The notes under the pieces: model-generated
Databases searched by the model: none
Seen by the model: the letters and a program-made list of their open reading frames with translations, nothing else
Told to the model about the DNA's origin: nothing
NCBI GenBank assembly: GCA_038049695.1
Contig: CP142452.1
Span: forward strand, 67,771,501 to 67,835,500
Direction of reading: 5' to 3'
DNA from: Cinnamomum chago
Lineage: Eukaryota > Streptophyta > Magnoliopsida > Laurales > Lauraceae
Length of the DNA stretch: 64,000 nt
Translations under genes and position numbers: made by a program
In this document: piece by piece, positions 2,164 through 62,995 of the stretch
How positions within the stretch are numbered: the stretch's first letter is position 1
Layout of the letters: each line of letters opens with the position of its first letter

Positions 2164-2265
2164 TCAAATTCCCAGCTCTTTTGCAATGTCTCTGGTCAGG
2201 CTGAATTGCAATGTATTATGCCATGGGAATAGTGTTCGAGTGACGGGAAGTTTCCTTCGAAGGTC
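2164..2265 (-). pseudogene. CPA: CPA last exon, copy 1
   Basis: 102 bp from acceptor GCATCAG to stop TGA 2166-2164. Reads DLRRKLPVTRTLFPWHNTLQ then FSLTRDIAKELGI, the very conserved CPA C-terminus. The frame is intact in this exon. Confidence 0.9.
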
Positions 2266-3237: not shown

Positions 3238-3399
3238 CCTAGGCCCGCCCTGGCCCTCGAGGGTAAGGGTAAGGGTAAGGGTAAGGGCCTAGGTAATGCA
3301 GGCCCTCCAAGGGTTTTGGCCCACTTGGGCCCAGCCTTGCATATATTGAGGGTTGGGTAAGGACAGCCCCGGGCCGGGCCCAGCCCATTGACAGCCCTA
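3238..3399. mobile_element. Small GC-rich element with GGGTAA repeats, copy 1
   Basis: Runs from aggccctaggcccg to cccattgacagccct. The minus-strand start AGGGCTGTCAATGGGC matches the start of the larger element at 62996. It contains four GGGTAA units at about 3260-3285; copy 2 has three. Confidence 0.5.
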
Positions 3400-3479
3400 C
3401 ATAGGACCAGAAGCAAGACATGTTGAGCCCAATAGTAAGGTTCACGCTGCCGCAGAAAATGACTATAGCTAACAGGCCT

Positions 3480-3560
3480 GCCAATACAAGCGTAGGTCAA
3501 GAACATGGACCATAGAGAAGCCAAAAGGATCTCACCTGGAGTAGGCCATGATGGCTTGGC
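3480..3560 (-). pseudogene. CPA: Possible ruined CPA exon 8-equivalent
   Basis: The minus strand here reads GQAIMAY and, in another frame, GEILLASLWSMF. These fall where the family has an AIxxIIRHHETEYLASL-type stretch between exon 7 and the last exon. The match needs a frameshift and is followed by a GC-rich transposon (3238-3399). Weak, based on position and a short similarity. Confidence 0.3.
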
Positions 3561-3642
3561 CAACTTTCAGCATGAATCCAACACTTAAATTTCAAGAAAA
3601 TAAAGATGATTTTTGCAATGCAGTTGTAAGACTGATGCTAAC

Positions 3643-3725
3643 CTGGAAGATAGTATTGTCTTTGCATTCATGGTTTAATTTGCATCTAGCTGCACATTTC
3701 CTTCCTCAAAATAGTGGGCATCTAC
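3643..3725 (-). pseudogene. CPA: CPA exon 7-equivalent, copy 1 (frameshifted)
   Basis: 83 bp. VDAHYFEEGNVQLDAN is followed at once by TAA because of 5 extra bases that the other copy (59017-59094) lacks. Splice sites (GTCAG and GTTAGC) are kept. Confidence 0.88.
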
Positions 3726-4732
3726 CTGACATAAAACAATTAGCCTATATCTTTATTTTTAAATATCATCCAATAGGACATGTCTCCTGGAAATTGCCAT
3801 CATTTTGCAACCTATGTTGCCCAGATAATTCAGAATATGCAATGTATCAATGTATCAGATCATATCACATCACATCTGATACATCATTTTTTAAGTAGAA
3901 CTCCCAGGCATATCCATGGCATGTCTCTACCATGTTCAGGCGTCAAATTTTGCAACTAACATTTCACTACAGAACTGAGGAGATTTTATTCATTCCCAGA
4001 GGCCTGGGAAAGGAGGATAAAAAAACCAACAATGGCATGTAATGATAACGAGGAAACAAATGCAAAAATGAAAATGACTTTTTGTGCAAACAAGTTCCGA
4101 TGAATTGTCCCTGCATGATCTCATCAAAGTGGAAGTCTATCTCATGTAACCCCAAAAAAATCAGGTAGAGGCTAATTAGACAAAGTGAACAATTGGATCG
4201 ATCAACACCATAATTGGCTGAATCCAATGGATCCAGATCTTTTTTAAATTTTCAAATTCTAAGTTTATGATCCAAAGATGATCAACAGGTCAGGCTAATT
4301 TTTGGTGAATCAATCATTCACACGCTTAGAACTCCCACGCACACATGAGCGCACAATAAATAAATAAGCATTCAATTATGCTTGACTCAAGGTGGGCCCA
4401 AATTAGTTACATAGAGAGCCGCACGTTTTTCTTGAACTAGGGAATCTGGTAGGTGTGTTTGTCATCCTGTAAGATGGAAATTGTGGCCCACTTATGATTT
4501 CTGATATATGGTGCTGATGGGAAGTATAGGAAGAATGTGGATATTCCAGTAGAGTTCGACTTGGTCCAACTTGGCCAAGTCCTATGCAACTCATTCAGTG
4601 AACTCAACTCATGGGTGACCACTCGAATCCAATTCTTAAAACCAGATATGATTGCCGTCTCAATAATGCTGATACTATGCATTTATTCAATTGCACATGC
4701 TGAAATAACAATGACCAACTTAAAAGAAATAC

Positions 4733-4811
4733 CTGCAACTTGCCTCTTAATTCTACTACTTGCAAGTCATCCTTAAATTCAATGTTCCAAATTGATCGCC
4801 AACTGCCATTG
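4733..4811 (-). pseudogene. CPA: CPA exon 6-equivalent, copy 1 (open)
   Basis: 79 bp between TTGTTCAG and GTATTTC. Encodes NGSWRSIWNIEFKDDLQ and VVELRGKLQ in one open frame. The copy at 60100-60179 has one extra base. Confidence 0.88.
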
Positions 4812-5419
4812 CTGAACAAAGGAGAAAAAAGGAAGTTACAGGAAGAAAGAGATTAGCAAACGAGAATCATGATCAAAGATCATTAAGTTTGAAACAGTGA
4901 ACCTCTGGCCAGAAGCTTTAGGGTTTGTCTTTTTTATATCTTTAAGATGAATTAAAGATCATTTATCATTTGCATTTTACAATTTTAGAATAAGTTTTTC
5001 ACATTCATCAATATTCCACTTGATGGAGTAAATCTGGATTCAACTGCATACCAATAAAATGAAGCTACTGATGGGTCTTTGATCCACTGACCTTAAAGCA
5101 ACTCATCTATCATTCATACATACCTGCTTTTTTTTGGATTAGATCATTCAGATATTTATGTGAACCAGTATCCAGCGACAGGTTTTACACATGCACATCA
5201 ATCCACATGATATGTGCAAAAGTTCACACATTTGAGACGTAATTACTAGGTTTGACATTGTTTATGTCAATACTATCAATGCACATTTCATCTTTTATTA
5301 CTTAAAGGAAGCATAGTCCGTATTCTACCTAATTAGGACTTGGGATTCTCTTCGCAAAAGGAGGTTTTCGAAAAATGTCAGGAGCAAAAAAATATATATA
5401 TATATATATTTTGCTTGCA

Positions 5420-8400: not shown

Positions 8401-10900
8401 GTCAACCCATGTTGACATTGACTGTAGGGAGAATTGAAATGGTGGAGTGGGTTAGTCATGTTGGCAGCCAAGGGAGAAAATAAAAACAATTAAAGAAAGA
8501 GAGGGAGAAATGGTGGAATGGGGTGAGGTGAGTGAGCTATCTCACGTTGGCAGCAAGGGAGTGAGAGAGAAAGAAAGTAAGAGAGAGAAACAAAGAAAGA
8601 AAGGGAAACAGAGAATGAAAGAGAGAAACAGAGAATGAAAGGAATGAACAGTGAAGGGGAAAAATGGGAAAACAAAGAGAGATGAAGTGGGCTGGTTCGC
8701 CGGAGATGGGGAGCTCGGCGACGATGCAGGTGGGTCCGGCGGCGACGGTGATGGCGCCGGGACAGTGGGCAGCATGGCTGGGTGAGATGAGGGAGAAGAG
8801 AAAAGGGGCTGTGAGCTGGGAAGAGGGAGAGATAAGTGAGAGATGAGATGAGATGAGAAGAGATGGGAGAAGGAGAGGAATCCGTCAGAGATGAGGGTGA
8901 CCGGTGGCGGCGTGCTCGTTGTCCGGCGAGGAGAGTGAGATGGAGAGAACGGGAGAGATGAGAGAAACAGAGGGGGAGGGCGGCTGTTGTGAAGTGAATG
9001 AGAAGAGGAGGGAAATGAAGATAAGGGAGAGGAAAGGAAAGAATAAAGAAAGAGAGGGGGGAGGCAGCTGTCCATGCACGTGGAGTGAGGGGAGAGGAGA
9101 AAATGAGTGAGGAGAGAGAGAGAAATGAAGAGAGAGAAAGGAAAGTTTAATGGGTTTGGGCCCGGTCACGTTTTGGGTCGAGTTCGAGGGTCCGAATCAA
9201 GGTGCAACAAAAGGATAAAGTCCGAGAAATTAGGTAATCTACCCGATGGTGTCAAAATCTCAAAAAGCGGAAAACTACTAAAAAGCCCTCGGAACTTTTC
9301 GAAAATAACGACACACACCCCTACTGTACCCAAACGGGTTCGGATCTCAACCCAATTTCGCACGCGCAACCCTAAAGATAAATCGGACATGTTTGGCTTA
9401 TAAACGAGCTTAATTAGCTAAAAACACAATTAACTAAACTAATTACAACCTTGGAATTTCGGGATGTTACATTTAGTATGGGTGGTGATTGTGCTCCTGG
9501 TCCACATGGTTTTAATACGAATTTTTTCAACATTTTTGGAATTTATTGAAGGATGACTTGCTTGTGTTCTTTAATGAATTTCATTCTAACGGCGTCATTG
9601 CAAAGAAGTTGGGTTCCTCGTTTATAGCTTTGATCACAAAGAAAGGAGGTGCTCTCTCTCTCTAAGAGATTTTAGACCAATCAGCTTGGTTGGTAGTCTT
9701 TATAAGATTTTGGCCAAAGTTTTGGCTAATTATCTTCGGAGAGTGCTCCCGGAAGTTATTTCTGATGTCCAAGGGACTTTTGTTGATGGTCATAAGATTT
9801 AAGATAGTGTGCTTATAGCCCATGAACGTGTGGATTCAAGGGTCAAGCAACATCACCATGGATTAGTTAGCAAGCTGATTTTGAGAAGGTTTATGATATG
9901 GTGGATTGGGGAGTTTTGTAATATGTGTCGGGCCGTATGGGTTTTGGGAAAAAGTTGTGTTTCTGCTACCTATTTTTCTATCTTGATTATTGGTTCTCCT
10001 AAAGGTTATTTTAAGAACTCTCGAGGTTTGAGACAAGTCCTCTATCTCCTATGCTTTTTGTCGTTGTCACCCAAGCTTTCAATGTTTTAATGGAGAGAGC
10101 TAAGCTATGCGTGTTGATCACAGGTTTTTCTACTAGTAATTCTTTCCATGAGGTAAACCATTTGCAATGTGCGGATGATACGATTACTTTATGTGATGTG
10201 TCATTGGAACAGGTTGATGCTTTGAAGAATATTTTGGGATGGTTCCGGATGTTATCCGGTTTAAAAATTAATTATGGCAAGTGTAAGCTAATTGGCAATT
10301 GTCTAGAGGACAATTATGTTCAGTTGCTAGCTGATGTTTTTGGGTGTAGGGTTGGTCAGCTTCCAACAAAGTATTTGGGCTTGCATTTGTGTTTGGAATT
10401 ACCAAAGAAAATTTTATGCGATCTGGTGGTGAAGAGACTTGAGAAAAGACTCTTCATGGAAGGGGAGGTATTTATAAATGGGAGGTTCATGAAAAAGACT
10501 TGAGAAAAGTATCTCTTCGTGTTCAGTTACTTTAATCAAGTCTGTTCTTTCTAGCATTTTGATTTATTTCTTGTCTTGTTTCATGTCCTAAAAGTGTAGT
10601 TCAGAGATTAGAGAAGATCCAACACGATTTTCTTTGGAATGATACCATTGATAAGAAAAAATTCCATTTGGCTAGATGGGGGCCTGTTTGTAATCCTCTA
10701 GTTCTCAGTGGATTGGGAATTCGATCTATTGAGAAAATGAATAAGGCACTGGTCAGTAAATGGCTTTGGAGGCTGTGTAACTTAGATCACGGTTTATGAA
10801 GACAGATTATTGTGGCTAAGTATAAGGTGCATAGGGAGGGGTGGTTTGTTCTGGATATTCATTATAGGTCTTTGGGTATGTAGAAGTGTGTGCTTTCTGT
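5420..10900 (+). pseudogene. L1-type LINE ORF2, split by a nested LTR
   Basis: Left part (5420-5841) reads, across frameshifts, KWKQCSRNKWLKEG, ASARRRVNRIFAIES and YSTDEIKSAVFS. After the nested element the text resumes with SMGGDCAPGPHGFNTNFF, then RDFRPISLVGSLYKI and LAKVLANYLRRVLPEV. Then come CADDTITLCDVS (the FADD-like catalytic box), MLSGLKINYGKCKLIG and LPTKYLGLHL, then HDFLWNDTIDKKKFHLARW. Many stops. 5' truncated (no endonuclease). Lies antisense in the large CPA intron. Confidence 0.85.
5842..9471. mobile_element. Solo LTR-like insertion of 3.6 kb inside the LINE
   Basis: Begins TGTCACGCCCC and ends GGGATGTTACA (TG...CA), with a perfect 5-bp duplication TTTAG at 5837-5841 and 9472-9476. 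Removing it and one TTTAG restores the LINE frame AVFS|MGGDCAPG. Inside are 25-bp tandem repeats of ggcaacaaggcacgagtag type (about 6588-6665), a GA-rich stretch at 8280-9140 and no pol genes. Size and ends suit a long gypsy (Tat-like) LTR left by LTR recombination. Confidence 0.8.
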
Positions 10901-25740: not shown

Positions 25741-26034
25741 TCACAAAGGGATAGGGTCAACGAACAATGATTTAATCTTCTCTTTTATCTCACGCGAAGA
25801 GTCAGTGTATCCATCTCCATGCAAGTAGATGACTTCGATCATGCGTGTGAGGTTGACCACTCGTGTAAGTAGAGACAATGGGAAGAGGGTTGGTTTAAGG
25901 CAGAACTTGTTCATGTCCTTCCATGCTGATGTAACCATTTCCCGAATCTTTTCGCATGCCACTGGCCGTGATACACCATGCTCCTTCATGTAGCTCTCAA
26001 TAACAGAAGCAGCATGTGGTCTCTTTTGCTCAAA
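25741..26034 (-). CDS. TPS exon 7 (C-terminus)
   Basis: 294 bp including the stop. It encodes FEQKRPHAASVIESYMKEHG, the NAWKD-equivalent SAWKDMNKFCLKP, LTRVVNLTRMIEVIYLHGDG and the usual acidic/hydrophobic ending FVDPIPL. The first FE completes the NSE/DTE motif. The downstream flank (25563-25740) resembles the flank of the second TPS at 62590-62746, so the two genes are paralogues. Confidence 0.95.
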   Translation of the reverse strand, partial: FEQKRPHAASVIESYMKEHGVSRPVACEKIREMVTSAWKDMNKFCLKPTLFPLSLLTRVVNLTRMIEVIYLHGDGYTDSSREIKEKIKSLFVDPIPL

Positions 26035-35417: not shown

Positions 35418-35790
35418 CTTGTTAGCTCTTTTAGCTCCATTCGATACATTGACTATGCCAAATTGAAATCCAACTTTGCAAGCTCTAGGAAAATCTCATT
35501 CGGCTGCTTATGTTGTTCGAAGAGTGAGATAACAAATCGGGCATCTAGCCTTGCAATACGCTTGTGCATAGGTAGCTCAAGAGCATGGCCAACTTGTGCC
35601 CCAAGAGGACCATCAAGATGGGTTATTAGAGACGAAAGATGTGCTTTTGTAAAAGAGATGGCTTCATCCAATATTTCTTCTCCATCAGTGCCATAAGATG
35701 CCGCTTCATTTAGACTTAACAGTCCCCCCACATCACTACTTAAACCTTTCTTGAAGTTGCCTTCTTTGTCTTTAAACTTGTTCAATACAT
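35418..35790 (-). CDS. TPS exon 3 with in-frame TAG
   Basis: 373 bp encoding VLNKFKDKEGNFK, SDVGGLLSLNEAASYG, EILDEAISFTKAHL, LPMHKRIARLDARF and LAKLDFNLA. A TAG at 35455-35453 follows, and the frame then continues SMYRMELKELTR into exon 4. The stop replaces a position that is normally Gln, so a single C-to-T change (CAG to TAG) explains it. The 3' splice donor is GC (AAG|GCAAGC), not GT. Confidence 0.9.
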
Positions 35791-36496
35791 CTGGTTCATG
35801 ATCAAATAATTCATGATTTCAGTTACCTAAAACGGTCAAGCCAAAATTCGACATTCATCCAACGATGTCACATTTGGTTATTCAAATGAAGACAACAACT
35901 CAAATAGAAAGTTATATTAGATTGGAAAGGGCCATTTGGGGGGTCGAGTAGTGGAGATCTAAATCAAATGAAGGACAAAAGAAAGAATAATCCCTTCGGG
36001 CCTAGGAGGAGCCGAGTAAATTCCCTATGGCTCCAGTGTGGGTAGTGCAGTTTCGAACCCACAACCAAATACCCAATTGAACTTGTTAGACCATAATTTA
36101 ACAACTTAGAAGCTTGGCTCAACTTGGTAGGTCATTGGGCCAAGAAGGTCGAGCTTAGTCTACTTAGATACCCTATCAACTCAACTCAATGGAGTCGAGT
36201 CAAGGCCATACCATACGAGTTTTGAAATTATGATTTGGACTCCTCCCTACTAATCGGACTGGGTGACTCATATTTGAGTCGATTCGGTTTGCACAGAAGA
36301 ATCAAACTAGTGAAAAGTTATGATCTTTAAAAGTTCCTTCTTCCTCAACAACTTATTTAAGTGCTAAAGTCGCCTTTAGAATTGCAAAATGAGCATTGAT
36401 TAGAAAGGAATCCTCCAACTTTTCCTTAGATGATATTATCTCTAATTGGGGATCTTGTATGGGATGTGGCCCTGTTAAGGAGAGGACTTCTATTCC

Positions 36497-36900: not shown

Positions 36901-37107
36901 TAGGTAGGCTGTGTCCTTGGGTAGTGTGATCATACAATTTGAGTTGGAGATGGTGCATCTCTTTTTCACCTTCTCAATATCTTTTTTTTTTTTTTTTTTT
37001 TTTTGTATTGTGAGCTTTGGTATTCTTCTCCCTTATAATGAATTCTATCGTTACCACTAAAAATAAATAAATAGTGAAAAGCAAGTCACTCAGTGGAGAA
37101 AGTTCAC

Positions 37108-37363
37108 CGGAGGAGACATTATAGCCCTCTTCTCTTAGTAATCGGAATCGAAGAGCAACAATCTTTAGATCTTCATAATCAACATTGGCATCATTTATAT
37201 GTTCCAACGCATCGTTGATCTCCTTCTCAAAGTGATAGGCCACTCCAAGTCGTTGGATCTCATCAATCATGATCATTTCTTCAACTAAGCCCTTGGCCCT
37301 GATAAGCATCTTCTTCACTTCCTCCTTCAACTCTCCAACCCTTCTAGTCCATGCATCTATTTT
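37108..37363 (-). CDS. TPS exon 2
   Basis: 256 bp from acceptor AG (37365-37364) to donor GT (37107-37106). It encodes KIDAWTRRVGELKEEVKK, then IDEIQRLGVAYHFEKEI and ALRFRLLREEGYNVSS, the conserved N-terminal alpha-helical domain of TPS-a. It ends one base into the Asp codon completed by exon 3. Confidence 0.9.
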
Positions 37364-37529
37364 CTGTTCATATATATCCCATTGTAGATTATAAGAAATC
37401 AGTTAGTAAAAAAACTAATTCTAGATTACATAGATAAGAAAAATAATGACGTGAAAACATGTGGCTGTAGGGCTTATTGTGGGGCCCACTAAATGCCACG
37501 TTCTATCATGATTTTAGGTGGGATATTGG

Positions 37530-47449: not shown

Positions 47450-48209
47450 CAGGCTTACCAGAATGGATACTAGTTCTAATTAACCAATCAACACGTAGCG
47501 GACAAAACCAAATAAACAATATAGAATTATCAATTTACCAATCACGCACCATAAGAAGGTAGACACAATATTTAGCGTAGAAACCCTATCCAGGGAGAAA
47601 AACCATGAACCAGAAATCAAGAACTCACGAATAGTCACAAGATATGCTCACAACTCCTTTACCTCAGTCTGTACCTCGACCTAATGACTGTAGTTATTCT
47701 TGCACAGAATCCACTGCTATGACATCCACCGTGCACCATTCTCCTTACTTGATTTCCTCGCACCTTGTCAGTCAAGATGAACTATCTTCTACAAAAGAGT
47801 AGAAGCAACCATAACCTTCTAGAGCAGTCCTTCAGAACGATCTCTCAATAGCTCTAGTGAATAATTCTCTCTCTAAGATATTTCTTACTTAGATTGATGA
47901 GAGAGGTGGTGTTTTGTTTGGAGCAATTGGAGAGCTGGGAGACACTAGAAGGTTTGAAGAGGAGGCAATTGAGCAGGTAAAGAGCATTTTAAATGGGAGA
48001 CTGTAAATATTTTATGGTCCGCGATCTCTAGATTCGTCTAATCAAACAATCAACCAAATAGTGTGCAAAAATAAACAATATGCAGCGGAAATAAAATAAA
48101 TAAGCACACACCACAAGGACACCAAATTTAAGGTGGAAAACCATAACCGGGTGAAAACGCCACCGATCCAAACTGGATCAAATCAAACACTATGAATCTC
48201 GCAAGTACA
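47450..48209 (-). mobile_element. Remains of copia-like LTR tails
   Basis: Two stretches (about 47480-47640 and 48060-48200) read on the minus strand like LTR U5 ends with ggttttccaccttaaat and ctggatagggtttctacg. No boundaries found. Probably the start of the copia remnant that continues to the right. Confidence 0.3.
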
Positions 48210-49311
48210 ATAAACAACTAAACTTATTAAATATCTGAATGTCATTATACCATGCAGGGGAGTATGTTTCCTCATAATTAATCTCAGGTTTCTGCAAGAA
48301 ACCTTGTGCCATTAATCGTACCTTATATCTGGTAATTTCATTCAGCTCATTCATTTTTCTTACAAAAAGCCACTTGTAACCTATAGGGTTAACATCTTTT
48401 GGGTTTGTACTATAGGTCCGAACACACCACGTTTATTGAGAGACTCTAACTCTGTTTTGATAACACTTTCTCATTTTGGCCATTCCTTTCTTTGACGACA
48501 TTCATTTATAAAACGTGGTTTTGTGTCCTAATCATCTTCATCATTTTCCTTTGATATTTGTGGAGGTCCCGCATATTCAAATGTGTCATCGATGACAATA
48601 TCATTTCTATTCCATCTCTCTCTTGAATAATTATAAAGTATAGATATCTCTTCATTATTCGGTACCAGTGCCTCTTTAGGGGCTTTCAAAGTCTCATTAG
48701 GGACTTCCATTATTCTAGAGAAAACGGATTTTACCATAACCTCTTCAAGAGCGTTATGTGCCTCTTCGGGAAGGAACCTCTTCAGGAGCGTTGCGTGCCT
48801 CTTTGGGAGGAGAAGATGATGATTGTTCATTTCTCCTTTTCCGCGGAGTTAAATCATTTGAACCTATAGGTCTGCCACGCTTCTGGCGTATCGTAGATTC
48901 TTTTGCTGCCGTATTTTGACTTCGTCCTATAGGGACATTAATCCTGGCAGGTGCATTCATAGCTGGCACATGTGACTTTGTCATATTTGTTGCATCATTA
49001 AATGCATCAGGTAATCTGTTTGCAATTTCTTGCAAGTGCACAATTCTCCGTACTTCATTCTCACATTATGAAGTTTGTGGATCCAGATGAGACAGAGTGG
49101 AAGTATTCCATGTTAATTTTCGCTGTTCTTCAGGAATGGGTTGTTCTATAGGAACAATTTGTTCTTCAGGAACTATCTTATCTCCCCCTAACGGTGGGAA
49201 TATTGTCTCATCGAATTGACAATCGAAAAATCGATCAGTGAAAACATCTCCTGTCATTAGTTCTAGATATCGAATAATCGAGGAAGAGTCAGAACCTACA
49301 TAGATTCCCAA
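48210..49311 (-). pseudogene. Ty1/copia pol fragment, copy 2
   Basis: Reading the minus strand from 49311: YVGSDSSSIIRYLELMTGDV, FDCQFDETIFPPLGG, TLSHLDPQTS, then HLQEIANRLPDAFNDATNM, then PARINVPIGR and KRGRPIGSNDLTPRKRR. It ends in the start of the reverse transcriptase (ECRQRKEWPK, ELESLNKRGVFGPIV, then frame-shifted YSP..ITFRYLISL). This is the integrase-to-RT part of copia polyprotein. Multiple stops; dead. Confidence 0.85.
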
Positions 49312-49435
49312 TCGACGTTGAAGAATGTTGCACTTTTTTTCCCTTCACTTTGGGCTTTTTTTTCCCATTGGGTTTTTCCTTAGCAAGGTTTTTAATTAGG
49401 CAAGTACCTTTGAATGATGGTCATCCAAGGAGGAG

Positions 49436-49618
49436 TATTATAAGATATGGATCTTGGGTGGATGCCCACTTGAGATTAGTTAGAGTTAGAATTAGGGTTC
49501 CTCTGTTGTGGAGTTTGCCTATAAATAGGCATCTCTGATGTCATAATATCTGAATAGTCTTCCAGATCATTTGTCTCTGCTGAATGAACAGAGGCCTTTT
49601 ATACTTTATATTGTTCCA
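49436..49618 (+). mobile_element. Copia-type LTR, copy 2
   Basis: Copy of 794-983. The first bases are mutated from TGTTA to TATTA, and a few bases around cctataaatagg differ. Confidence 0.5.
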
Positions 49619-49933
49619 CCATTTCTTTTGGTGCATGGCAAGTGCGTGACCAATGCCCACTTCTTCCACATCCGTGGCACGTGTTAGAGATCAGTTGCAC
49701 GTGTTAATAAAAATGCATTTTATTAACATTTACTAGTAGTTTAATTTATATATATATATATATATATATGGGGGGGGGGTATTCAAGTGAGGGATTCTAT
49801 ATATAAGAAAAGTGAGAGGGTCAGGCCAGGCCTGGTAATGTCCAACCGCAACCCTCAAATTGACAAGCATTAACAAGTATTGTCCAAGCCCTGCCCTAAC
49901 ATTTCTGGGATCAAGTCTTATATTAGGATGTCT

Positions 49934-50200
49934 AGTGCTTTTTCACTGGGATTGGTTCTTGTTTGCATATCCTTATTCCATATTCCATCTAACTCCTATT
50001 TTGTAGCTGCTGCACAACTCCTTATTTACGTAGGAGCTGTATATGTTTTAATCATATTTGCTATGATGTTCATGAATAGTTCATAATATTACAACGATTT
50101 TAATCTTTGGACCGTTGGGGATGGGGCCACTTCACCAGTATGTACAAGTATTCTTTTTTCACTAATTACTACTATCTCGGATACGTTGCGGTACAGGATT
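49934..50200 (+). pseudogene. ndhG: Chloroplast ndhG fragment in the nucleus, copy 2
   Basis: Less damaged copy: [37 protein letters not shown] and IIFAMMFMN, then a stop within the SEYYND stretch and continued similarity through WTVGDG. Shared with copy 1, so the plastid insertion came before the segmental duplication. Confidence 0.87.
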
Positions 50201-50856
50201 GATGCTTATTTTGAAAAAAAAAACTCATTTTGCGGTCTCCTTTGAGGTTCTAGCCGGGACCAAGTACCCTCATAGGAGGGCCCAATATTTCACAGCCCCA
50301 TGTGTGTAAAGGTGTCAACATGTCATCTCATGCCATGTCGGCACGCCTGACAACACAACACGGCATGCTGGCGCGGCACAACTTGTATCGTGCCTGAATC
50401 ATGCCTGGGCTTTGTCATTCGTGCCATGCCTCCATGTTTCGGGCTTCTAATATATATGTTGTAAAAAGTTTATACACATAAAGAAGAGTAACACACAGAT
50501 ATGACCATTTTATAGACTTTAAAAAAAAATCAACATAACCTGTAATGCCCCCAATATGACAATTTTATGGCTGTTTGATGTACATTCCATGCCAGAAAAT
50601 GGGCCAGACCTGTATACTACCACCATAGTGGCAGAGAAGGCCTGACGATGATATAACTCAGTAAAAATACAAGTGGATACATTCATAAAATGTTATATAA
50701 ACACTGAAAGTACAAGCAATGATGCACAAACAAACGTAGAGTAAACCGGACTTCTGAGGATGGATACAAGATCTGTCACATTGACATGGCCACATGGGAA
50801 ACAACTCAGATCTCCAAATAGAAGATGCGACCTCTGCCATCAAGAAATCTCACTTC

Positions 50857-50958
50857 TCAAATTCCCAGCCCTTTTGCAATGTCTCTGGTCAGGCTGAATT
50901 GCAATGTATTATGCCATGGGAATAGCGTTCGAGAGACGGGAAGTTTCCTTCGAAGGTC
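50857..50958 (-). pseudogene. CPA: CPA last exon, copy 2
   Basis: 102 bp copy of 2164-2265, open, reading DLRRKLPVSRTLFPWHNTLQ then FSLTRDIAKGLGI and TGA. It differs by Ser for Thr and Gly for Glu. It is now separated from copy-2 exon 7 by more than 8 kb of inserted DNA. Confidence 0.9.
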
Positions 50959-51190
50959 CTGATGCACAAGCAAAACAACGTATTATTCCACGCTTTTTCA
51001 CATGACCTTTTGCCACCTATGGTGGGGCCCATAATAGAATATCAATTTCCAATTTTTTGCAATATTAAATAAATCAATTGCAGTTTCTTTTCAGATGTCT
51101 CATTTCTTTTATCGGCTGCTCATGGAAGTTAAGGCTATTATATTAAAATAATTTTGGGAGCAAAAGAACATCTATACAGTACCTTGAAAG

Positions 51191-51640
51191 TGGTGTCCGG
51201 CAAATTTGTGTGTGAGGCCTACAAAGAAATACAAACATTAGAAAAAATTGATATATATATAGAGAGAGAGAATCAATTGGTGATAGGAAATAGCACAACA
51301 ATAGTTTTATGGTGAGGGCGAGGGCTCGACCACAATTATGACAGCTCAGGAGCGAGGGTGGACGTTGACCTCAACAATCCCTCCCTCAACGGCACACTCG
51401 CCGCGACTCCTACTGCGAACTCGCAAAACGCATGTCCCGTGACTCGAACATCCGACCTACTAGGCTCTGATACCACTTGTAAGATCTTATACACCCTATT
51501 GAGCTACCACTTATCCCAAAACCAATTGGTGATAGGAAATGGCACAACAATAGTTTTATGGTGAGGGCGAGGGCTTGACCACAATTATGACAGCTCATGA
51601 GCGATGATAGATGTTGACCTCAACACAAATCATACTTGTT
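51191..51640 (-). mobile_element. LTR fragment with methionine-tRNA primer site
   Basis: ggctctgatacca at 51463-51475 is the complement of TGGTATCAGAGCC, a common primer binding site, next to TGTAAGATC at 51478. A ~105-bp unit (attggtgataggaaat...gttgacctcaaca) occurs at 51271-51375 and 51520-51625, on both sides. Part of the DNA that splits copy 2. Confidence 0.6.
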
Positions 51641-52320
51641 ATAGATACCGCACAATCTTCAGGGGAGTGAAAAGGCAATATGATACAGATATCCATGCAT
51701 ACCAAAATCAGTTCCACGTCCGACATCGACACATTTAAGCTTCAATTATGAGCAAACGTCCAGAAAGATCAGAGCGAAACGCTACTAACAAGAAAGTCCT
51801 GTGAGGGAATAAAAGACAAAGTGCACGGAAATATAAAGAGGAATTTACAGGCTGGGGGCTACCTTATTTGTTTAGTGCCCACCCTAATATAAAGCCGCCA
51901 GGCGAATCCACTCATCAAAATGATGGACCACACAAGGAATTTCTAGGTAAACCGTCGACCAACTTTTTAACTATCCTAGTTGCGGGGTCAAGTATCACAA
52001 ATGAAAATCAGCACTACCAAGGTCTTCATCTGGAACAGGCTGGAGTAGCGGATGTCAGTCATTGTGTCTTTTTCATTTTGATAAATTCCTTCTGTATTCT
52101 TATTCATATTTAATAGTTTCTAGAATAAAATCTCAGTCATTATCTTTACAAAACCAAGTTATATCATTCAGTTATCCGACCTAATTTTCAGGCTCTGTCA
52201 AGCCCATAGGACTAGGTCTATCAATTCGGCCGAGACCTCAAAAGGCCCTTAAAATGAGAGCTTTTGTTTCTAACACTAATGTCGGTTTTGGACGGTACCA
52301 GGCCGGGCCCCTGGCCCAGG
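51641..52320. other. Inserted DNA left of the CACTA element
   Basis: No gene recognised. The end is GC-rich (ggccgggcccctggcccagg) and similar sequence (ctaggctctggctct) resumes after the CACTA element. Confidence 0.4.
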
Positions 52321-53828
52321 CACTACTAGAAAAAAGGGTTTTTATATCGGCTAAAAATCGATATAAAAGACCTATTATATCAGTTTTTCAGTAAACTTTA
52401 AACCGATATAAGTACCCCCGATATAATAAACAACTATAACCGATATAATATGTGTAATATTTCATATCGGTTTTTGGACAACTGATGTCTTTTGAACCTG
52501 AAATTATAACACATATTACTGTAAAACCGATATAAAAAAAAAAGTAAAACCGATATAAAAAATATTTATAATATCGATTTTCGGTAAACTGATGTGTTTT
52601 GAAACTGAAATTATAGCATACATTACTGTAAAACCGATATAAAAAAGAGTGAAACCGATATAAAAATTATTTATAATATCGGTTTTCGGAGAACTGATGT
52701 GTTTTGAAACTAAAATTATAGCATACATTACTGTAAAACTAATATAAAAAAGAGTGAAACCGATATAAAAATTATTTATAATATCGGTTATAAAGGGCTT
52801 TGTTATATCGGTTTTTTGGGATTGTATTATATCGTTTGTTCTGTAACCGATTTAATATTATATATGCATTTTTTTTATCAAAAGAATTTGCATTGCTGCA
52901 GTACCTATAAAACCTGCAGTACCATTGCAGTACACTGTACACCAATAAAACTTTGCACTATATATACAAAATAATAAAATGATCATATATATATAACTAA
53001 TTAATAATTAACATAAAGCTTGACTAGACAAATCTCTATGGAAATATTGTGTGTGTGTGTGTGTCTATATATATATATATATAGTATCTACATTGTCTTC
53101 CATGGGATGTACAAAAAGTTGGAACTATATATAAACAAAAAAACCAAAAGATAAATAATCATAATTTACCTCCAAAGCTTCAACAACCATCTTTTGGCTC
53201 CCCTTGAAGGCAAGACCCGGCCAACTCCTTTTTTACCGGCGCTATGATCAGTTTCTGAAAAAATTTACATTGCATGAATCATCTGTGAAATTGCACTCAA
53301 TGGAACCATCAACTAAATTGCTATACCTCTTATGTCTATAGACATGCATGCAGATGCTGCCCATCCACACATTGATAAATGTGCTAGTATGGCATGGTTG
53401 GAAGGCGATCATTGTTGCAATCATAAGGTAGCAGGTTCAACTGTGCCACCATTCAAAAAAATTAATAAATTAATAAAAATGATTGGTTCATCAGATTGAT
53501 GTATTCGTTTGTGAGGGTCACGCATAAAAAGAATCTGCATGGTCGAGAGAGATAGATACCTCCACCTCCCTGGGTTCTGAAAACTTTTCATGTGCAATAA
53601 GAGGGACACCACTCTTTTCCTGTTATACAGTATTGCCAAATTCATTAGCTATATTCAGGCAACTGACTAAGGTTATAATACCAAATTCATAAGATTTTCA
53701 TTGCAAAGAAGAAAATTTCAGAGTTATCAAACAGCTAAAGCCATTTAAAGTTAGATTTCTAATGAACAATATTATGCACTGTAGCACATCTATAGGAGCC
53801 TTGTAGGAATGAAAGGAGAAAACCATAC

Positions 53829-54374
53829 CTGCGTTGTACAGCGAGCAACTCCATCCCACTTATTGTATGTGCGCCTATAATTCTCCGTCCACTCCCCATA
53901 ATCCATCATACAATTAATCAAGCTCGTGTAAAGAGCACGATCAAATAGACAAGCTAAAACACATGCAGATATAACAAAAATAGAATAAAATATGAAGTCA
54001 AACCATACCCAACAACAAAAAATGCATATCCATCCATGTGGTAACTCTGGATAGTTGTATCATTGTTCTGGAATATGACTTCCATAAATCCCTTATATGT
54101 ACCATTGATTATAGACGTTCCAATGCGTGGTGATCCAATAAGTGGCCTAGTGGGAAAATCAAGTTCGTAAATTCCTGTCAAATTGAATTGATCAGCTAGC
54201 CTCAAAGGTGTCTTAGGAGCAGAGTATGAGATTCCACTGAGTGTGGTTCGACGCTTTCCATTAATAACCACAGGAGGCTTGTTTTTTAAAACATATACAT
54301 CAGTCACATTGATCTGTCTATATTTGAAAGATCCTTGAGGATTAGGACGCGCTGCACCAGCCGACACATTCCAC
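53829..54374 (-). pseudogene. Captured SKU5-similar multicopper oxidase exons
   Basis: Exon A 54374-54009 reads WNVSAGAARPNPQGSFKYR, TTLSGISYSAPKTPLRLADQ, FNLTGIYELDFPTRPL, INGTYKGFMEVIFQNNDTT and SYHMDGYAFFVVG. Exon B 53907-53829 reads MDYGEWTENYRRTYNKWDGV then ARCTTQ. These are adjacent blocks of the C-terminal cupredoxin domain of SKU5/SKS proteins, which are secreted or GPI-anchored wall proteins. Both exons are open and in phase. The intron between them is kept, but its 3' end is TAT instead of AG. Flanking exons are absent, so this is a fragment. Confidence 0.88.
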
Positions 54375-56249
54375 CTGACAATTTCACAAATAGAACTCAC
54401 GGTCAAACAGAGGAATCAGGAAAAGATGTAACTAAATGAGTTTCTTTTCCTTTTTTCTTTTTCTTTTTTAATAAGATCCATCAATCACGTTTTTTTGGTA
54501 GTAGTTACTAAGAGAGTTAACTAGTAGCCAGTTCTCAAATCAGAACAGAGAGGAAAGAGGAAAGAAAAGAAAGTCTCAATCATAATGTCCCCTCATTACT
54601 GACACTAATAAATCACCATTTACTTGATTTTAACAGAATGACCAATTGTTGCAGAACTTGAAGGTGCACAATAAATAGAGATTAGAAACCAACAGAAAAT
54701 AGAAAGTGGAATATCAAATGTAGGAATTATTAGTGAAGGTATAGACTATAAATTATCAATTATCTTATACTTATGGTGCATTATAACATACCTTCTCATC
54801 ATTATAGTCATACAATTCAGCATCTGCTGAACACACCAGATGATCATGACAAAAAAAAAAAAAAAAAAGAGGGTAAAGTCAAAATCTTCATCTCAGTGTT
54901 GTAACAAGCCACAAAAAAACCACAAGATGAATTGAAGAAGACAATGGAGAAAGCTAACAATTTAATTGTTGACATTTTGAAGAAAAAACCACAATTGGCC
55001 TCTGATTGTAAATAAGAGAACCTAGATAATATCAATACATGTCTATTTTAATGAATGATGGATGTAAAAAAAAAAAGGTAGCAACTCACGGTACCAATGT
55101 ATAAGTCCATGTGATTCCTATGCATTGAATTACATGAAAAAACTGTCCCTAAATACAAGACCAATCCCAGATGAACTGGGCTAAGATTCAATGATGATTA
55201 CCCAGTCCACTTTATATAAAGACCTAAGAGAGGATGAGATTTAATGGTTTGACTTAACAATTGGACTCCCTGGGTCAGATTTCAAGGGAAAAACAGAAAT
55301 TGTGATGCCTCCACATCCAGCAGTCTACAAGAGCACTCCAATTATTTCAGCCAATGGATGGGAGGTGTATGCACAGGCAATATGCACACCATTAAGGATC
55401 GCCCAAATGATGAAGGGTCCCATCAGCCCAAATTATTGTAAATGAAGCTTAGGCTCTCAAACTGTGCAAAGGCAAGCACTGTATAACAGGCATGCTAATT
55501 GAAATCAGCAATAGAATATATCAACATGAGAAAAGAAAAATGATTGGCACTTCCCTTTTCAAAGGAATCATACTTCATTCTGGAAACAACAGCTAGAAAA
55601 TCTTGAGAAGAATAAAAGATCAAAAGAAGACAGTGGAAATCCTTGAACTCGGCAGCAGCAAGGGACATGCTTCTTAGCTGTACATCCCATGTTTATGTCA
55701 GATCAACTATTGGGTGGTCCACTACACAATTAAAATGTTAGAACTGAAGAGATGCATAAATATAACACAAGGATATCAAATTCCATGTTCCGCAACATCT
55801 TTGCCAAAAAGCTAAAGAAATTTGCCACCCCAACAAGGTTAGTAAGAAATTTGTCAGCCATCAGGCAAAATAAGATGGCGCCACTGTGATTTTTGGGCCA
55901 TAATCTATCCAAAATCACATAACACAGGTATATGCTACTTACACTGAAATGAAAATTTAATTAAAGAAGAAATTTTGTGCAACAAGCAATAATGATGACG
56001 AAACAATATGATGATGACAGATTAATATAGAAGAATTGAGTTGAGAAAGCAGGTATTCCCAACATTAGCCAAACCAGCTCCCTGTCAAGCAATCACATTA
56101 CACCTTAGAAACCCAAATACTCAACCCTAAATCAAATCTTAAATCCAGACTTTTAATCAAAACATTAACAAAACCCAACACAGAAACCCCAAAAAAACCC
56201 ATCAGATTTAAGAACCACAAAGCAAATCAACGAAAACCCTAAGAACACA

Positions 56250-56400
56250 CTCACAATCCTCCGAAACGTGATCTCAAATCTGAGCTCTGGATCCAACCCA
56301 TATTCAAGGATGTCACCCCCACCGTCCGATTTCTTCCCCGCAGAACCAGCTGGGCCGCAGCCGCCGTTGCTCGTGCAGGGCTATTGCCGATCGAGAGAGA
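56250..56400 (-). other. GC-rich exon-like stretch in the CACTA element
   Basis: The minus strand has an open frame GPAGSAGKKSDGGGDILEYG then LDPELRFEITFRR, followed by a possible donor, and preceded by a GA/CT-rich 5'-UTR-like region (56390-56560). Its base composition stands out from the neighbourhood. Possibly a captured first exon of another gene; family not recognised. Confidence 0.35.
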
Positions 56401-56603
56401 GAGCAGAGAGAAAGAGAACGAGAGTGAGCGAGAGAGACAGGGAGAGCAGAGAGAGAGAGTAGAGAAAGCGAGAGTGAGAGAAGAGCAGAGAGAGCGAGGG
56501 TGAGGAGAGAAGAGAGTGAGAGTGAGGGAAAGAGGGGTTTTTGGAGGGAGAGAGGCGCTAGGACCGAAAAGAGGGTTTTGGAGGCGGGAGAGGGGGGGGG
56601 GAA

Positions 56604-57257
56604 ATTGGAGCTTTACCAACGTTTTTTTTCGTCGGCAAAAGTATAAAATAAAAATAAAAAACATAAAATACTTTTACCGACGTTTCCTTTTCGTCGGCAA
56701 AATAAGAAAGAAAATAAATATAAAATATAAAAGTAATTTTACCGACGTGTTTTTCGTCGGTAAAATAAAAATAAAAAATATATATAAAATACTTTTACCG
56801 ACTTTTTGTTTCGTCGGCAAAATAAGAAATAAAATAAAAATATATAAAAAGACTTTTACCGACGTTTTTTTTCGTCGGTAAAATAAAAAATAAAGAAAAA
56901 ATAAAATACTTTTACCGACGGTTTTTTTTCGTCGGCAAAAGGATAAAAAAATAAAAATACTTTTACCGACGTTTTTTTTCGTCGTTAAAAGGAAATAAAA
57001 AATATAATATATTTACCGACGTTTTATAATTCGTCGGTAATAATCTCCGATTTTTACTTTTCCTAGAAAAATAAATTAATTCTATGATCTAACTTTACCG
57101 ACGTTTTATACAAAACGTCGGTAAAAATCTAGAAAACGTCGGTAAAAGTCTGATTTTTACCGATGAAATTATATACGTCGGTAAAATCCAATCTTTACCG
57201 ACGAATTTTTTAAAGCGTCGGCAAAAAACGTCGCTAAAAGTGCAGTTTGTTGTAGTG
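56604..57257 (-). mobile_element. Terminus of a second CACTA element
   Basis: The minus strand begins CACTACAACAAACTGC at 57257, followed by an array of about 18 TTTACCGACG/CGTCGGTAAA words down to 56610. No matching opposite end. It is nested in GA-rich DNA inside the larger CACTA element. Confidence 0.75.
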
Positions 57258-57400
57258 AATGGAGAAAGAAAGAGAAGGGAGCTGGGAAGGAAAAAAAAGG
57301 AGGGAAAGAAGGAATGATGGAGAAAGAAAGAGAAGGGAGGGAAGGACAAAAAAAGGAGGGAAAGAAGGAGTGAGCCCGCGCGGGGAGCAGCATATTAAGG
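57258..57400. repeat. GA-rich ~66-bp tandem duplication
   Basis: ggagaaagaaagagaaggga followed by aaaaggagggaaagaagga occurs twice in a row between the two CACTA arrays. Confidence 0.8.
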
Positions 57401-57836
57401 GATTTTAAAACCGATGTAAAATCATTGTGTATATAATATCGGTTTCATAATAACCGATATAAAATATGTATATATAATATTGGTTTCATAATAACCGATA
57501 TAAAATATAGAAATTAATATCATATATTTTCTAACCGATATTATATATAGAGATTATTATGTCGGTTCCTGTGTAACCGATATAAAAAAAATTGACCGAT
57601 ATAAAAAAATACTAACCGATATAAAAAACCTTGACTGAAGATATTATATCGGTTATATGGAAAACCGATATAGGGCAATTTTTGTAATCGATATAAAAAC
57701 CCTTTTTTCTAGTAGTGCTAGGCTCTGGCTCTCTTACCTTTCTTTATTTTATATAATATAAATTTATATATGTAAATATATACTAAAATGCCCTTGCAAC
57801 AACCACTTAGCATGAATAAAATGAGGATCCGATATG

Positions 57837-58087
57837 AAGGAAATTTCATACCCCATACCCATTACAAAATGCCTTAGAACCCCATACACGTAGAAACTTG
57901 TTTCATTTCATCTCTATTTAATTATTAAAATATATATATTATACTTAATGCATAAGTAATAACTAATAAGTGTAATATGGTTGCTTCCGATCCCTTTCCT
58001 CTAGTTTTATTGCTTCTTATCTAAGCCTTTTATATTCTTTTTATATATTTTACTAGTGCGAAAGGGGGTGTACTCTTATTAATAAGG
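57837..58087 (-). repeat. 250-bp block inverted relative to copy 1
   Basis: Reads as the reverse complement of 2497-2750: gaaatttcataccccatacc here against ggtatggggtatgaaattt there, through to ataaggatgcgc against gcgcatccttat. The outer flanks stay collinear. Confidence 0.85.
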
Positions 58088-58617
58088 ATGCGCTTTTTCT
58101 TTTGTAGAGTGATTTGGGATGCCAACCAATCTATAGAGATAGTTTGTACGTGCATGGTGCTTCGAGGGTATGGGATGATCCAAATATCATTTTAATTCAA
58201 TAATTTTTTTAAACTCTAAACTAATAGTGATATTTAATTGCATTTATTTTTGTTACTGAGATCCGACAATGCTTAATAGTCAGATTAATGTTAAATTAAA
58301 AATGTGTCAATTCATAAAAGGTAGGTGAATGTTAATGGTTTAAATTTCTCAAAGATAAGACTCTGCCAGAATAATTTGGTACATGGAAAATCCTGTGGAA
58401 AGTGTGAGATATAACAGACTCACTATCCCTTTTCTTTCTTTGACAAAAAAAAAAAAAAATTCTGTCTAGAACCCAAGTCAACAAAACACATAAGACACTG
58501 TCCATAAAATAAAGTTTTTAGTGATAGTGTGTGTTCTCCAAATATTTTTTTCTTAGTGGTCCCTTCGCAAGAGAGAAGAGACAAAAAAATTAACTAATAA
58601 TTTTCTTGTTTTGAGGC

Positions 58618-58777
58618 CCTAGGCCCGCCCTGGCCCTCGAGGGTAAGGGTAAGGGTAAGGGCCTTGGCAATGCAGGCCCTCCAACGGTTTTGGCCCACTT
58701 GGGCCCAGCCTTGTATATATTGAGGGTTGGGTAAGGACAGCCCCGGGCCGGGCCCAGCCCATTGACAGCCCTACATA
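58618..58777. mobile_element. Small GC-rich element with GGGTAA repeats, copy 2
   Basis: Copy of 3238-3399 with three GGGTAA units (58641-58660). Confidence 0.5.
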
Positions 58778-59016
58778 GGACCAGAAGCAAGACATGTTGA
58801 GCCCAATAGTAAGGTTCACGCTGCCGGAGAAAATGACTATAGCTAACAGGCCTGCCAATACAAGCGTAGGTCAAGAACATGGACCATAGAGAAGCCAAAA
58901 GGATCTCACCTGGAGTAGGCCATGATGGCTTGGCCAACTTTCAGCATGAATCCAACACTTAAATTTCAAGAAAATAAAGATGATTTTTGCAATGCAGTTG
59001 TAAGACTGATGCTAAC

Positions 59017-59094
59017 CTGGAAGATAATATTGTCTTTGCATTCATGGTTTGCATCTAGCTGCACATTTCCTTCCTCAAAATAGTGGGCATCTAC
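59017..59094 (-). pseudogene. CPA: CPA exon 7-equivalent, copy 2 (open)
   Basis: 78 bp, 26 codons, VDAHYFEEGNVQLDANHECK then DNIIFQ. It shows the undamaged form of the exon that is frameshifted at 3643-3725. Confidence 0.88.
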
Positions 59095-60099
59095 CTGACA
59101 TAAAACAATTAGCCTATATCTTTATTTTTAAATATCATCCAATAGGACATGTCTCCTGGAAATTGCCATCATTTTGCAACCTATGTTGCCCAGATAATTC
59201 AGAATATGCAATGTATCAATGTATCAGATCATATCACATCACATCTGATACATCATTTTTTAAGTAGAACTCCCAGGCATATCCATGGCATGTCTCTACC
59301 ATGTTCAGGCGTCAAATTTTGCAACTAACATTTCACTACAGAACTGAGGAGATTTTATTCATTCCCAGAGGCCTGGGAAAGGAGGATAAAAAAACCAACA
59401 ATGGCATGTAATGATAACGAGGAAACAAATGCAAAAATGAAAATGACTTTTTGTGCAAAAAAGTTCCGATGAATTGTCCCTGCATGATCTCATCAAAGTG
59501 GAAGTCTATCATGTAACCCCAAAAAAATCAGGTAGAGGCTAATTAGACAAAGTGAACAATTGGATCGATCAACACCATAATTTGCTGAATCCAATGGATC
59601 CAGATCTTTTTTAAATTTTCAAATTCTAAGTTTATGATCCAAAGATGATCAACAGGTCAGGCTAATTTTTGGTGAATCAATCATTCACACGCTTAGAACT
59701 CCCACGCACACATGAGCGCACAATAAATAAATAAGCATTCAATTATGCTTGACTCAAGGTGGGCCCAAATTAGTTACATAGAGAGCCGCACGTTTTTCTT
59801 GAACTAGGGAATCTGGTAGGTGTGTTTGTCATCCTGTAAGATGGAAATTGTGGCCCACTTATGATTTCTGATATATGGTGCTGATGGGAAGTATAGGAAG
59901 AATGTGGATATTCCAGTAGAGTTTGACTTGGTCCAACTTGGCCAAGTCCTATGCAACTCATTCAGTGAACTCGACTCATGGGTGACCACTCGAATCCAAT
60001 TCTTAAAACCAGATATGATTGCCGTCTCAATAATGCTGATACTATGCATTTATTCAATTGCACATGTCGAAATAACAATGACCAACTTAAAAGAACTAC

Positions 60100-60179
60100 C
60101 TGCAACTTGCCTCTTAATTCTACTAATTGCAAGTCATCCTTAAATTCAATGTTTCCAAATTGATCGCCAACTGCCATTG
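60100..60179 (-). pseudogene. CPA: CPA exon 6-equivalent, copy 2 (1-bp insertion)
   Basis: 80 bp. Same as 4733-4811 but with one extra A in the TTTGGAAAC stretch, which shifts the frame to a stop after SIWKH. Downstream it reads NIEFKDDLQLVELRGKLQ in the shifted frame. Confidence 0.88.
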
Positions 60180-60310
60180 CTGAACAAAGGAGAAAAAAGG
60201 AAGTTGCAGGAAGAAAGAGATTAGCAAACGAGAATCATGATCAAAGATCATTAAGTTTGAAACAGTGAACCTCTGGCCAGGACCTTTAGAGTTTGTATTT
60301 TTTATATCTT

Positions 60311-62520
60311 CAGAGTCAAATGTAATTTAGACTCACGTCATTTTTGAAATACATCACAAAATATGTTCTATATTTATAGATGCTTACAATCTCCGATTTT
60401 TGTTTTCATGAATTCAAAACTTCAATTTCCATCCTTGAGATCACATGGAAAATGAAAAATCAATCCACCAGGTCCGTTCTTACACTTTCTTTAGACCCAC
60501 CGTTATATGACTATAACCTTTGTATCCGATCCACTAAGTTGTCTATCCCATCATATTCACACGTCCCCTTAACTTAAATAAATTAATGTTATTTCTTGCC
60601 TCAAATTTCATTGAAATTTAAATATTTGAGAGGCTTGAGACTTAAGAGATACACCCCCACTGAAGTGGAAGACCATGACAATAGACATAGAATTCGAACA
60701 CATTGATCAATTAGTTTTCCCATCGTGGTCAATACTTTATTAGTGATCCGATCAACTTAGCTGTCAATCACGCATCCACCAAGAAATCAATAGTACATGC
60801 ATGCATCATAGATGATTTTCATCAGAGATCTAATAGTTTTATTAAATTTTAAACCACTAACCATAGATCATGTCCTTATGTGCCGTTGGATTGTGCTCAC
60901 ATACTTTCGATCAAATCCTCGACCCCAAGATTCACAGATTAAAAATTTAGCGAATCAATTATTCTACCCCCACTGCACAAGGTAATGCCCAAATTAAATA
61001 ATACTGCAATGGTCGTCAAGGGTTCATAAAAAGAAAATACAAGTTGAATCTTATCACAACAAATAAATGCACAATTCTAGAAAAAGGTACCCATCCAATA
61101 TCTCCACACGAGTGTGTTCTTGTCATTGAAGATATCACTGTCGAGTAGGTCATACAGAATAGATCCATATAAGACATATCTAACAAATATATAAAAGGAA
61201 AAATCAAGTTAGATTGATCGTGATCGTTGACCAAGAGCTCTTCTAATTATTGGATCATCAATCTCTCATTGCCTCTACATAGATGTTGTTGCCAGAATTC
61301 CGCAGCCGCAAACGGATCGTCCATCAAAGCTCAGATGACCCAAATATCGCGCGACAAAATTTAAAAGTCAAAGGAGACTGAAAAGGTCCAAAAAATTTAT
61401 GACCGTTGGATTCCAAATCTGTCAATGCCACTGGATTGTGCTTGTCACCACGAATCCGTAGAACCAAATCGGTTGTCCATCCGAATCCGGATGAAAAAGT
61501 TAGGAAATGTCAAAGTTGTTGTTTGACCATTATCCGAGCTTGCTGACACAGTCGATATATGAGCCTGTACCAGCGCTTTTCAGTGCCATGGGTTTCTACT
61601 ACATGGGTCAGGCTGACCCGACCTAGACCTGGGCCTGACGTGTCCAGAAAAGGCCCCCTTCCTTGGCGCTGGGATCAGAAGACAAAAGTCCTTGTAACAC
61701 GATTTCCGAGGCAAAGAACCAACAGTCATTAGTTACGTGTGCTTCATTGTCTCGGTTTCTGTGTGCACGAAGAGAATTCGAAGTTCTCCCTCCTTCCCTC
61801 TATTGCATGGAATGGAATGGAACCCCGGATAAAGAAAAACAAAAACTCGATGAACAAGTCCTAGTTCCCGGAGATCCACAGCCTTATCGAAAAACCCCAA
61901 TCGTCAAACGCATAAAGATCTGGCTCTGATACCAATTAAAAGTACTTAATGGGCCCAAATTGGTGTCGGATCTGAACTCACCGAGAACCTTGTGCGTTTT
62001 GGGGTGATAGACCTGCGAACTCACTGCGAATGCTCTCAGATCTGTTGGATAATCAAGGGTTTCCATCTCCCTTATATAAAGCAATCCCCAAGAGTCATGA
62101 CTACTATGGACTCTACCCCTCCTGGAATCCCACATCTCCTGACCAGCGTGGGAATTCTGCCAACCGAGGGTCTGAACTTTATCCAAACTCTACCACCAAG
62201 TGTTTGATCCTTATCTGACTCAACAAGATCAAGACATGTTGGGAGTTCATCTGCGGCATATCACAAGTGTTTGAAGGTTTTTTAGTTTTATTTTTTTATG
62301 TACTTTACACCTCCTCTAACTCAAGGAAGCACACAATAGAGCTCATTTAAGGTTTTAATTATTTTCACTTTTAATAGCAGTTGTCATAGAAAATTGAAAG
62401 GATATTCAACACGTTTAACTCATGAACTCTACTCAACCACCATGTTTTCATTTTTTTTTCCTTCTTTCCCCAAAACAAATATGCATTTCTAACCTATTCC
62501 AGAGAGAGAGAGAGACATTG
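60311..62520. other. Spacer between CPA copy 2 and TPS2
   Basis: No host exon recognised. ggctctgatacca at 61922-61934 is a primer-site complement, and cttatataaagc at 62071 sits in what could be the adjoining LTR, so a minus-strand LTR element is likely but its edges were not found. Confidence 0.4.
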
Positions 62521-62746: not shown

Positions 62747-62995
62747 TCACATCGGAATATGATTTACAAGCATTGCACTGATCATCTCTTTTGTTTCACC
62801 CAAGGAATCACTGTATCCATCTCCATGTAGGTAGATTACTTCTATCACACGTGTAAGGTTAACCACGCGCAAAAGTAGAGACAATGGAAAGGGGATTGGT
62901 TTAAGGCAGAACTTGTTAATGTCCTTCCATGCTGATGTAACCATTTCTCGAATCTTTTGGCAAGCCTCAGGACTCGATACACGATGCTCCTTCAT
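62747..62995 (-). pseudogene. Second terpene synthase, last exon, cut by a transposon
   Basis: Reads MKEHRVSSPEACQKIREM, SAWKDINKFCLKP, LLRVVNLTRVIEVIYLHGDG and ends MLVNHIPM with stop TGA at 62749-62747. It is the paralogue of TPS exon 7 at 25741, and the 3' flanks are also alike. The first ~15 codons of the exon are missing: right after the Met codon of the MKEH block (62993-62995) a GC-rich element begins and runs to the window end. Upstream exons, if present, lie beyond 64000. The fragment itself has no stop or frameshift. Confidence 0.88.

Follow-up and report, generated by a model that had tools for sequence, protein, structure and literature searches.

CACTA transposons of several plants carry pieces of host genes. 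Such fragments lie in CACTA elements of grapevine (PMC2528002) and Chenopodium (PMC8978399), and the capture of exons together with introns, with chimeric transcripts, is described for Tgm-Express1 of soybean (PMC1947982) and Tpn1 of morning glory (PMC5105172). Here, we describe an element at positions 52321-57717 of a 64-kb window (the whole stretch of DNA that was analyzed) from the genome of Cinnamomum chago, contig CP142452.1. The genes in the window suggest plant nuclear DNA. The element is most likely a defective, nonautonomous Pack-CACTA-type (En/Spm) transposon that carries a fragment of an SKS gene together with an end of a second CACTA family. It is a new example and not a new phenomenon, such gene capture being already well documented. 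An original prediction, made from the DNA letters, had held that this combination might be new. This stands in a narrow sense, as to the gene captured, but the capture of intron-bearing exons by CACTA elements has already been published. Among the titles of the matches listed in the literature, we found none that reports a CACTA element with captured SKS sequence, and we do not claim that such a capture is unpublished.

Element Ends and Subterminal Repeats

The matched ends and subterminal repeats of 52321-57717 are the layout of a CACTA transposon, and the matching CACTA ends of the original prediction were thereby borne out. The left terminal inverted repeat, CACTACTAGAAAAAAGGG (52321-52338, plus strand), is matched perfectly over 18 bp by its inverted partner at the right end (57700-57717, minus strand). 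The left arm reaches to about 52357, and the inverted arms at 52320-52357 and 57681-57718 (38 nt) show 92% complementarity. With up to three mismatches allowed, CACTACTAGAAAAAAGGG had two matches in the 64 kb, both at the element ends; in 100 shuffled controls, the mean was 0.11 matches, and two matches were reached in 1 of the 100. Two pairs of 18-mers in the window start with CACTA and have an exact downstream inverted partner: one pair is the element ends, and the other sits in a flank duplication described below, within the piece that is inverted.

The subterminal motif ACCGATAT is confined to the ends. Both strands of the whole window hold 20 copies, 11 of them in 52321-52860 and 9 in 57401-57717, with none in the element interior and none outside the element; 50 first-order Markov sequences averaged 1.18 copies per whole window, with at most 4 in any one. 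On the left, these motifs and 105-bp tandem units (tandem repeat 52464-52789) form a subterminal repeat region at 52339-52860, and the motifs on the right form its counterpart at 57401-57699. Inward of the latter, a purine-rich 56-bp tandem array and a GC-rich stretch occupy 57258-57400 (tandem repeat 57259-57373, GC 0.48; the GC content of the whole window is 0.37). We refer to the family of the outer ends as family 1 and to that of the inner end described below as family 2; 57258-57400 is probably what is left of the right family-1 end on its inner side. The element thus has two features of the CACTA superfamily, terminal inverted repeats starting with CACTA and subterminal repeats at both ends.

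SKS-Like Fragment and Lost Splice Acceptor

Within these ends, the original prediction had placed two phase-compatible SKS-like exons with their intron. On the minus strand, an open exon 1 of 366 bp (54009-54374; acceptor CAG/G, donor GG/GTATGG) is followed by an intron with a normal donor (53908-54008) and by exon 2, MDYGEWTENYRRTYNKWDGVARCTTQ (53829-53907), which ends at a strong donor, CAG/GTATGG (99.7 percentile; all splice-site percentiles given here come from a rough matrix and provide a rough ranking only). The phases of the two exons are compatible. Joined, they match Pfam Cu-oxidase_2 with an E value of 1.5e-16 over profile positions 2-94 of 137; exon 1 alone scores 2.3e-8, and exon 2 alone scores 0.15, below the cut-off. 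In the profile, exon 1 ends at position 67 and exon 2 starts from position 70, with the residues G and M between them, and therefore, the exon joint neither lacks nor gains residues, as taken from the profile coordinates and not from the printed Pfam alignment. The exon 1 match carries one extra residue relative to the profile. Among solved structures, the fragment matched one laccase (E 1.7e-4 over the full sequence, 0.0028 with the best stretch alone), again with no gap at the exon joint; two further structure matches, with E values of 0.45 and 0.93, were set aside as chance.

The copper motif separates the fragment from the laccase. The fragment reads YHMDG where the laccase reads MHLHG, which puts HMDG in place of HLHG. 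SKU5 is described as lacking the type I and type III copper ligands (PMC10315306). Taken together, these observations argue that the fragment is SKS-like and not a laccase, the ligand loss being judged by sequence at a single site on the fragment. The name SKS is a provisional assignment, based on the Pfam match, the missing ligand, and general background on SKS sequences. All 88 SKS proteins reported from soybean have all three Cu-oxidase domains (PMC13026732), whereas the fragment covers only part of Cu-oxidase_2, one of the three, and it is therefore a fragment of an SKS-like gene and not an SKS gene.

The intron between the two exons is damaged. Because the Pfam joint is gapless, an acceptor is needed directly before GATGGATTATGG, where the site reads TTGTAT/GATGG and has no AG. 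The exon pair therefore cannot splice there in the normal way, and although the Cu-oxidase_2 match and the phases uphold the predicted exons, the native acceptor of their intron has been lost. Of the upstream AGs, two were considered: one at 53922 (27.8 percentile of the window AGs) is in frame and adds five residues, and one at 53953 (88.1 percentile) leads into a stop. As read from its sequence, the SKS part is most likely nonfunctional cargo, because it represents a partial single domain of three and has lost its internal acceptor.

We looked for coding domains around the element by scanning all six frames of 47501-62401 against Pfam at E 0.05. No transposase domain was found, with the reservation that decayed remnants could escape detection. 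Together with the enclosed fragment of a host protein-coding gene, this fits the makeup of a Pack-CACTA element. The continuation of the SKS exons as a normal gene beyond the CACTA ends was not seen: in the same scan, the reported exon was the sole site of Cu-oxidase_2 and further Cu-oxidase domains were absent, and a tblastn search of the whole window with the two exons returned self-matches only (next E 1.8 or worse), although short exons like exon 2 could escape the Pfam scan.

Candidate Target-Site Duplication and Duplicated Flanks

The sequence on either side of the element is itself duplicated. By BLAST, window positions 1-2496 match 48643-51190 at 88% identity and 2745-4942 match 58102-60310 at 96% identity; between these blocks, a 255-bp piece, 2493-2747, corresponds to 57841-58096 in inverted orientation, with a few shared bases at one junction.

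Several observations on these flanks weigh against the reading of 52321-57717 as a transposon with captured cargo. A 3-bp duplication is usual for CACTA elements, but the 3-bp flanks, AGG and CTA, mismatch at all three positions. The left flank CCAGG (52316-52320) and right flank CTAGG (57718-57722) form a candidate 5-bp target-site duplication that matches at four of five positions, with a single C/T difference, but this is only the best result from five lengths (3, 4, 5, 6, and 8 bp) compared at the exact ends; with uniform bases, a single test would give such a match with a probability of 0.016. Finally, the related flank at 1-4942 lacks the whole of 51192-57840 (∼6.65 kb), which comprises the element and its near flanks, and it therefore offers no clean empty site. 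If the ends are shifted, an exact AGG pair turns up two bases further right. We had at one stage read the 3-bp flanks as showing no target duplication and revised this on account of the 5-bp match. Published lengths cover both cases: the duplication is 3 bp for CACTA elements of lettuce (PMC8195511) and for several grapevine families (PMC2528002), a 3-bp duplication accompanies all but one of 339 Tpn1 elements of Ipomoea, 14 of them with a mismatch (PMC5105172), and 5 nt is given for rice and maize (PMC8903248).

The missing exact 3-bp duplication, in a rearranged region with duplicated flanks and one inverted piece, could be explained if nothing had been captured at all and two unrelated CACTA ends flanked a local SKS pseudogene remnant by chance. 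We consider this improbable, since the two ends agree perfectly over 18 bp and have their subterminal motifs in common, the 5-bp flanks agree at four of five positions, and the search of 47.5-62.4 kb turned up no SKS sequence beyond the element, though it could miss short exons. Capture within a CACTA element is the reading that we retain.

Inner End from a Second CACTA Family

Inside the family-1 ends lies the end of another CACTA family (56612-57257, minus strand). Its terminus, CACTACAACAAACTGCAC, stands at 57257 and points right, and 14 ACCGACG repeats follow inward; the end sequence CACTACAACAAACTGC lies within the same interval. All 14 ACCGACG motifs of the window fall inside 56612-57257. 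No partner of the CACTACAACAAACTGCAC terminus was found in the window, the next best match having 5 mismatches in 20, a level that is also that of the best chance match for the outer element ends. With a second-family end located inside the family-1 ends, the element is therefore a mosaic of two CACTA families. The Pack-type CACTA element with SKU5-like exons that had been predicted fits the sequence, but its broken acceptor and this second-family end had been overlooked. Given both, the captured piece looks like decaying cargo in a mosaic element.

The mosaic fits nesting with later deletion, or a merging of neighboring elements of the kind proposed as the origin of Pack-CACTA (review PMC13317346). 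The nested origin is a version of the retained reading and compatible with it: a family-2 Pack-CACTA already carrying the SKS exons and the leader would have inserted into a family-1 element and later lost its other end. The family-2 terminus at 57257 does adjoin the family-1 tandem array directly, and a candidate leader (see below) is located inward of the family-2 repeats, which is where the 5′ leader of a CACTA element is expected relative to its subterminal repeats. Under nesting, the SKS exons would have been captured by family 2 and not by family 1. Nesting requires an additional deletion, however, since the left family-2 end is absent from the window (best match with 5 of 20 mismatches), and the capturing family is not decidable from one copy; we offer it tentatively.

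Possible Leader, Terminal Exon, and Transcript

The original prediction also mentioned, and left unspecified, another exon-like stretch. We recognize two candidates, a leader exon and a terminal exon, both on the minus strand. The putative leader (56255-56611) is pyrimidine-rich, contains an ATG at 56301 (MGWIQSSDLRSRFGG), and ends at a GTGAGT donor at 56254 (81.9 percentile of the window GTs). There is no minus-strand ATG in 56302-56620, the 319 bases before the ATG at 56301, and a further upstream ATG lies at 56664. The candidate terminal exon (53180-53254) begins at TTTTTTCAG/AAACTG... in phase 0, with an acceptor at the 97.7 percentile of the window AGs, and reads KLIIAPVKKELAGSCLQGEPKDGC to a stop over 24 residues; Pfam gave nothing for it at E 1. 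A single frame of 193 residues runs through the leader, exon 1, exon 2 (entered by the cryptic acceptor at 53922), and the terminal exon. The leader intron holds other strong sites, among them an acceptor at 56081 and a donor at 54791.

The shared frame of these four pieces and the ATG-free stretch before 56301 would be expected of a working chimeric gene, one that starts at the leader ATG, includes the SKS exons by way of 53922, ends in the terminal exon, and encodes a 193-residue protein under selection. We regard such a gene as very improbable. The cryptic acceptor at 53922 is weak and inserts five residues where the Pfam coordinates run continuously, while the stronger AG at 53953 leads to an early stop. 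Two of the joints are new, so that their phases would agree by chance in one case in nine; a further ATG precedes the leader at 56664; and the leader intron contains the other strong sites, the acceptor at 56081 and the donor at 54791. A looser proposal is also unlikely, though slightly less so: in a merger of two unrelated families, family 2 would supply the promoter and start codon and family 1 the terminal exon and stop, and the SKS exons would then yield a spliced fusion peptide or small RNAs that regulate SKS genes.

For the defective Pack-CACTA element that we favor, we infer the following course. As has been proposed for Pack-CACTA of Arabidopsis, the cargo would have been gained through abortive excision between neighboring elements. 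A family-1 transposase that recognizes the terminal and subterminal repeats could then move the entire block in trans. Leftward transcription from the leader of the second family would produce RNA that mostly meets a stop in the retained or misspliced intron. At most, such RNA might give rise to chimeric transcripts or to small RNAs directed against the donor gene family.

Sequences Around the Element

Besides the SKS-like exon, the six-frame scan found Oxidored_q3, copia-type reverse-transcriptase, and F-actin-capping fragments. The Oxidored_q3 fragment (49964-50185, plus strand, Pfam E 6.4e-12) contains stops and has a copy at 1274-1485, so that it is present in both flanks; from Pfam and general background, we take it to be plastid ndhG-like, and it is probably a nuclear copy of organelle DNA. 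Both flanks also hold an exon-like fragment of an F-actin capping protein alpha subunit (59017-59097, minus strand, E 2.7e-8; copy near 3643-3728), possibly another captured gene piece. The copia-type fragment, RVT_2, lies at 48250-48408 (minus strand, E 1e-10), and an RVT_1-type reverse transcriptase fragment at 10015-10500 (plus strand) scores 4.4e-6, just below the curated cut-off. To the left of the element, a 106-bp direct repeat (51271-51376 and 51520-51625, 92% identical) is absent from the related flank.

Terpene-synthase sequences occur farther out, all on the minus strand. N-terminal exons lie at 35456-35818 and 36977-37402 (Pfam E 3.7e-19 and 8.5e-26), and a C-terminal exon-like stretch at 62750-62974 (E 0.0014, below the curated cut-off) shares 74% identity over 74 residues with another C-terminal stretch at 25744-25965. 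The duplicated flanks may therefore be part of a cluster of terpene-synthase genes.

No RNA families or tRNA genes were found in the window. In collections of prokaryote and virus contigs, a 29-mer of the element end had no matches, and the joined SKS fragment gave 38 (prokaryote) and 7 (virus) pattern stretches with none confirmed; both results are uninformative on plant copies. The end sequence, searched as letters in the text of the literature, had no match.

Comparison with Known Systems

The locus offers a clean and readable instance of a CACTA element that has taken up exons, and its second-family remnant records part of how the mosaic was assembled. Present views are not altered by one copy whose splice site is broken; further copies, if they exist, would permit a direct test of capture by the merging of neighboring elements that belong to different families.

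Measured against the SKU5/SKS proteins, the cargo is alike in that its C-terminal Cu-oxidase_2 segment has lost a copper ligand (PMC10315306, PMC13026732); unlike them, it consists of two exons only, spanning profile positions 2-94 of 137 in one of three domains. Tgm-Express1 is, like the element described here, a CACTA element that keeps host exons and introns, in its case within 5.7 kb (PMC1947982). It differs in residing in intron 2 of F3H, in holding five host gene fragments, and in its proven chimeric transcripts (PMC1947982), whereas the present element has one recognizable gene fragment and is known from its DNA sequence. The Tpn1 elements of Ipomoea nil are similar in that their terminal regions are conserved and their interior is swapped for captured host sequence; chimeric transcripts are reported for them as well, and they differ in near-universal 3-bp duplications, in place of which no exact 3-bp duplication is found here (PMC5105172). 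The Pack-CACTA elements of Arabidopsis and other plants likewise have CACTA ends, no transposase, and a fragment of host coding sequence, and for them an origin has been proposed in the merging of neighboring elements with terminal deletions (PMC13317346, PMC8903248). The mosaic described here is comparable, and it is set apart from them by an inner end that comes from a visibly different CACTA family.

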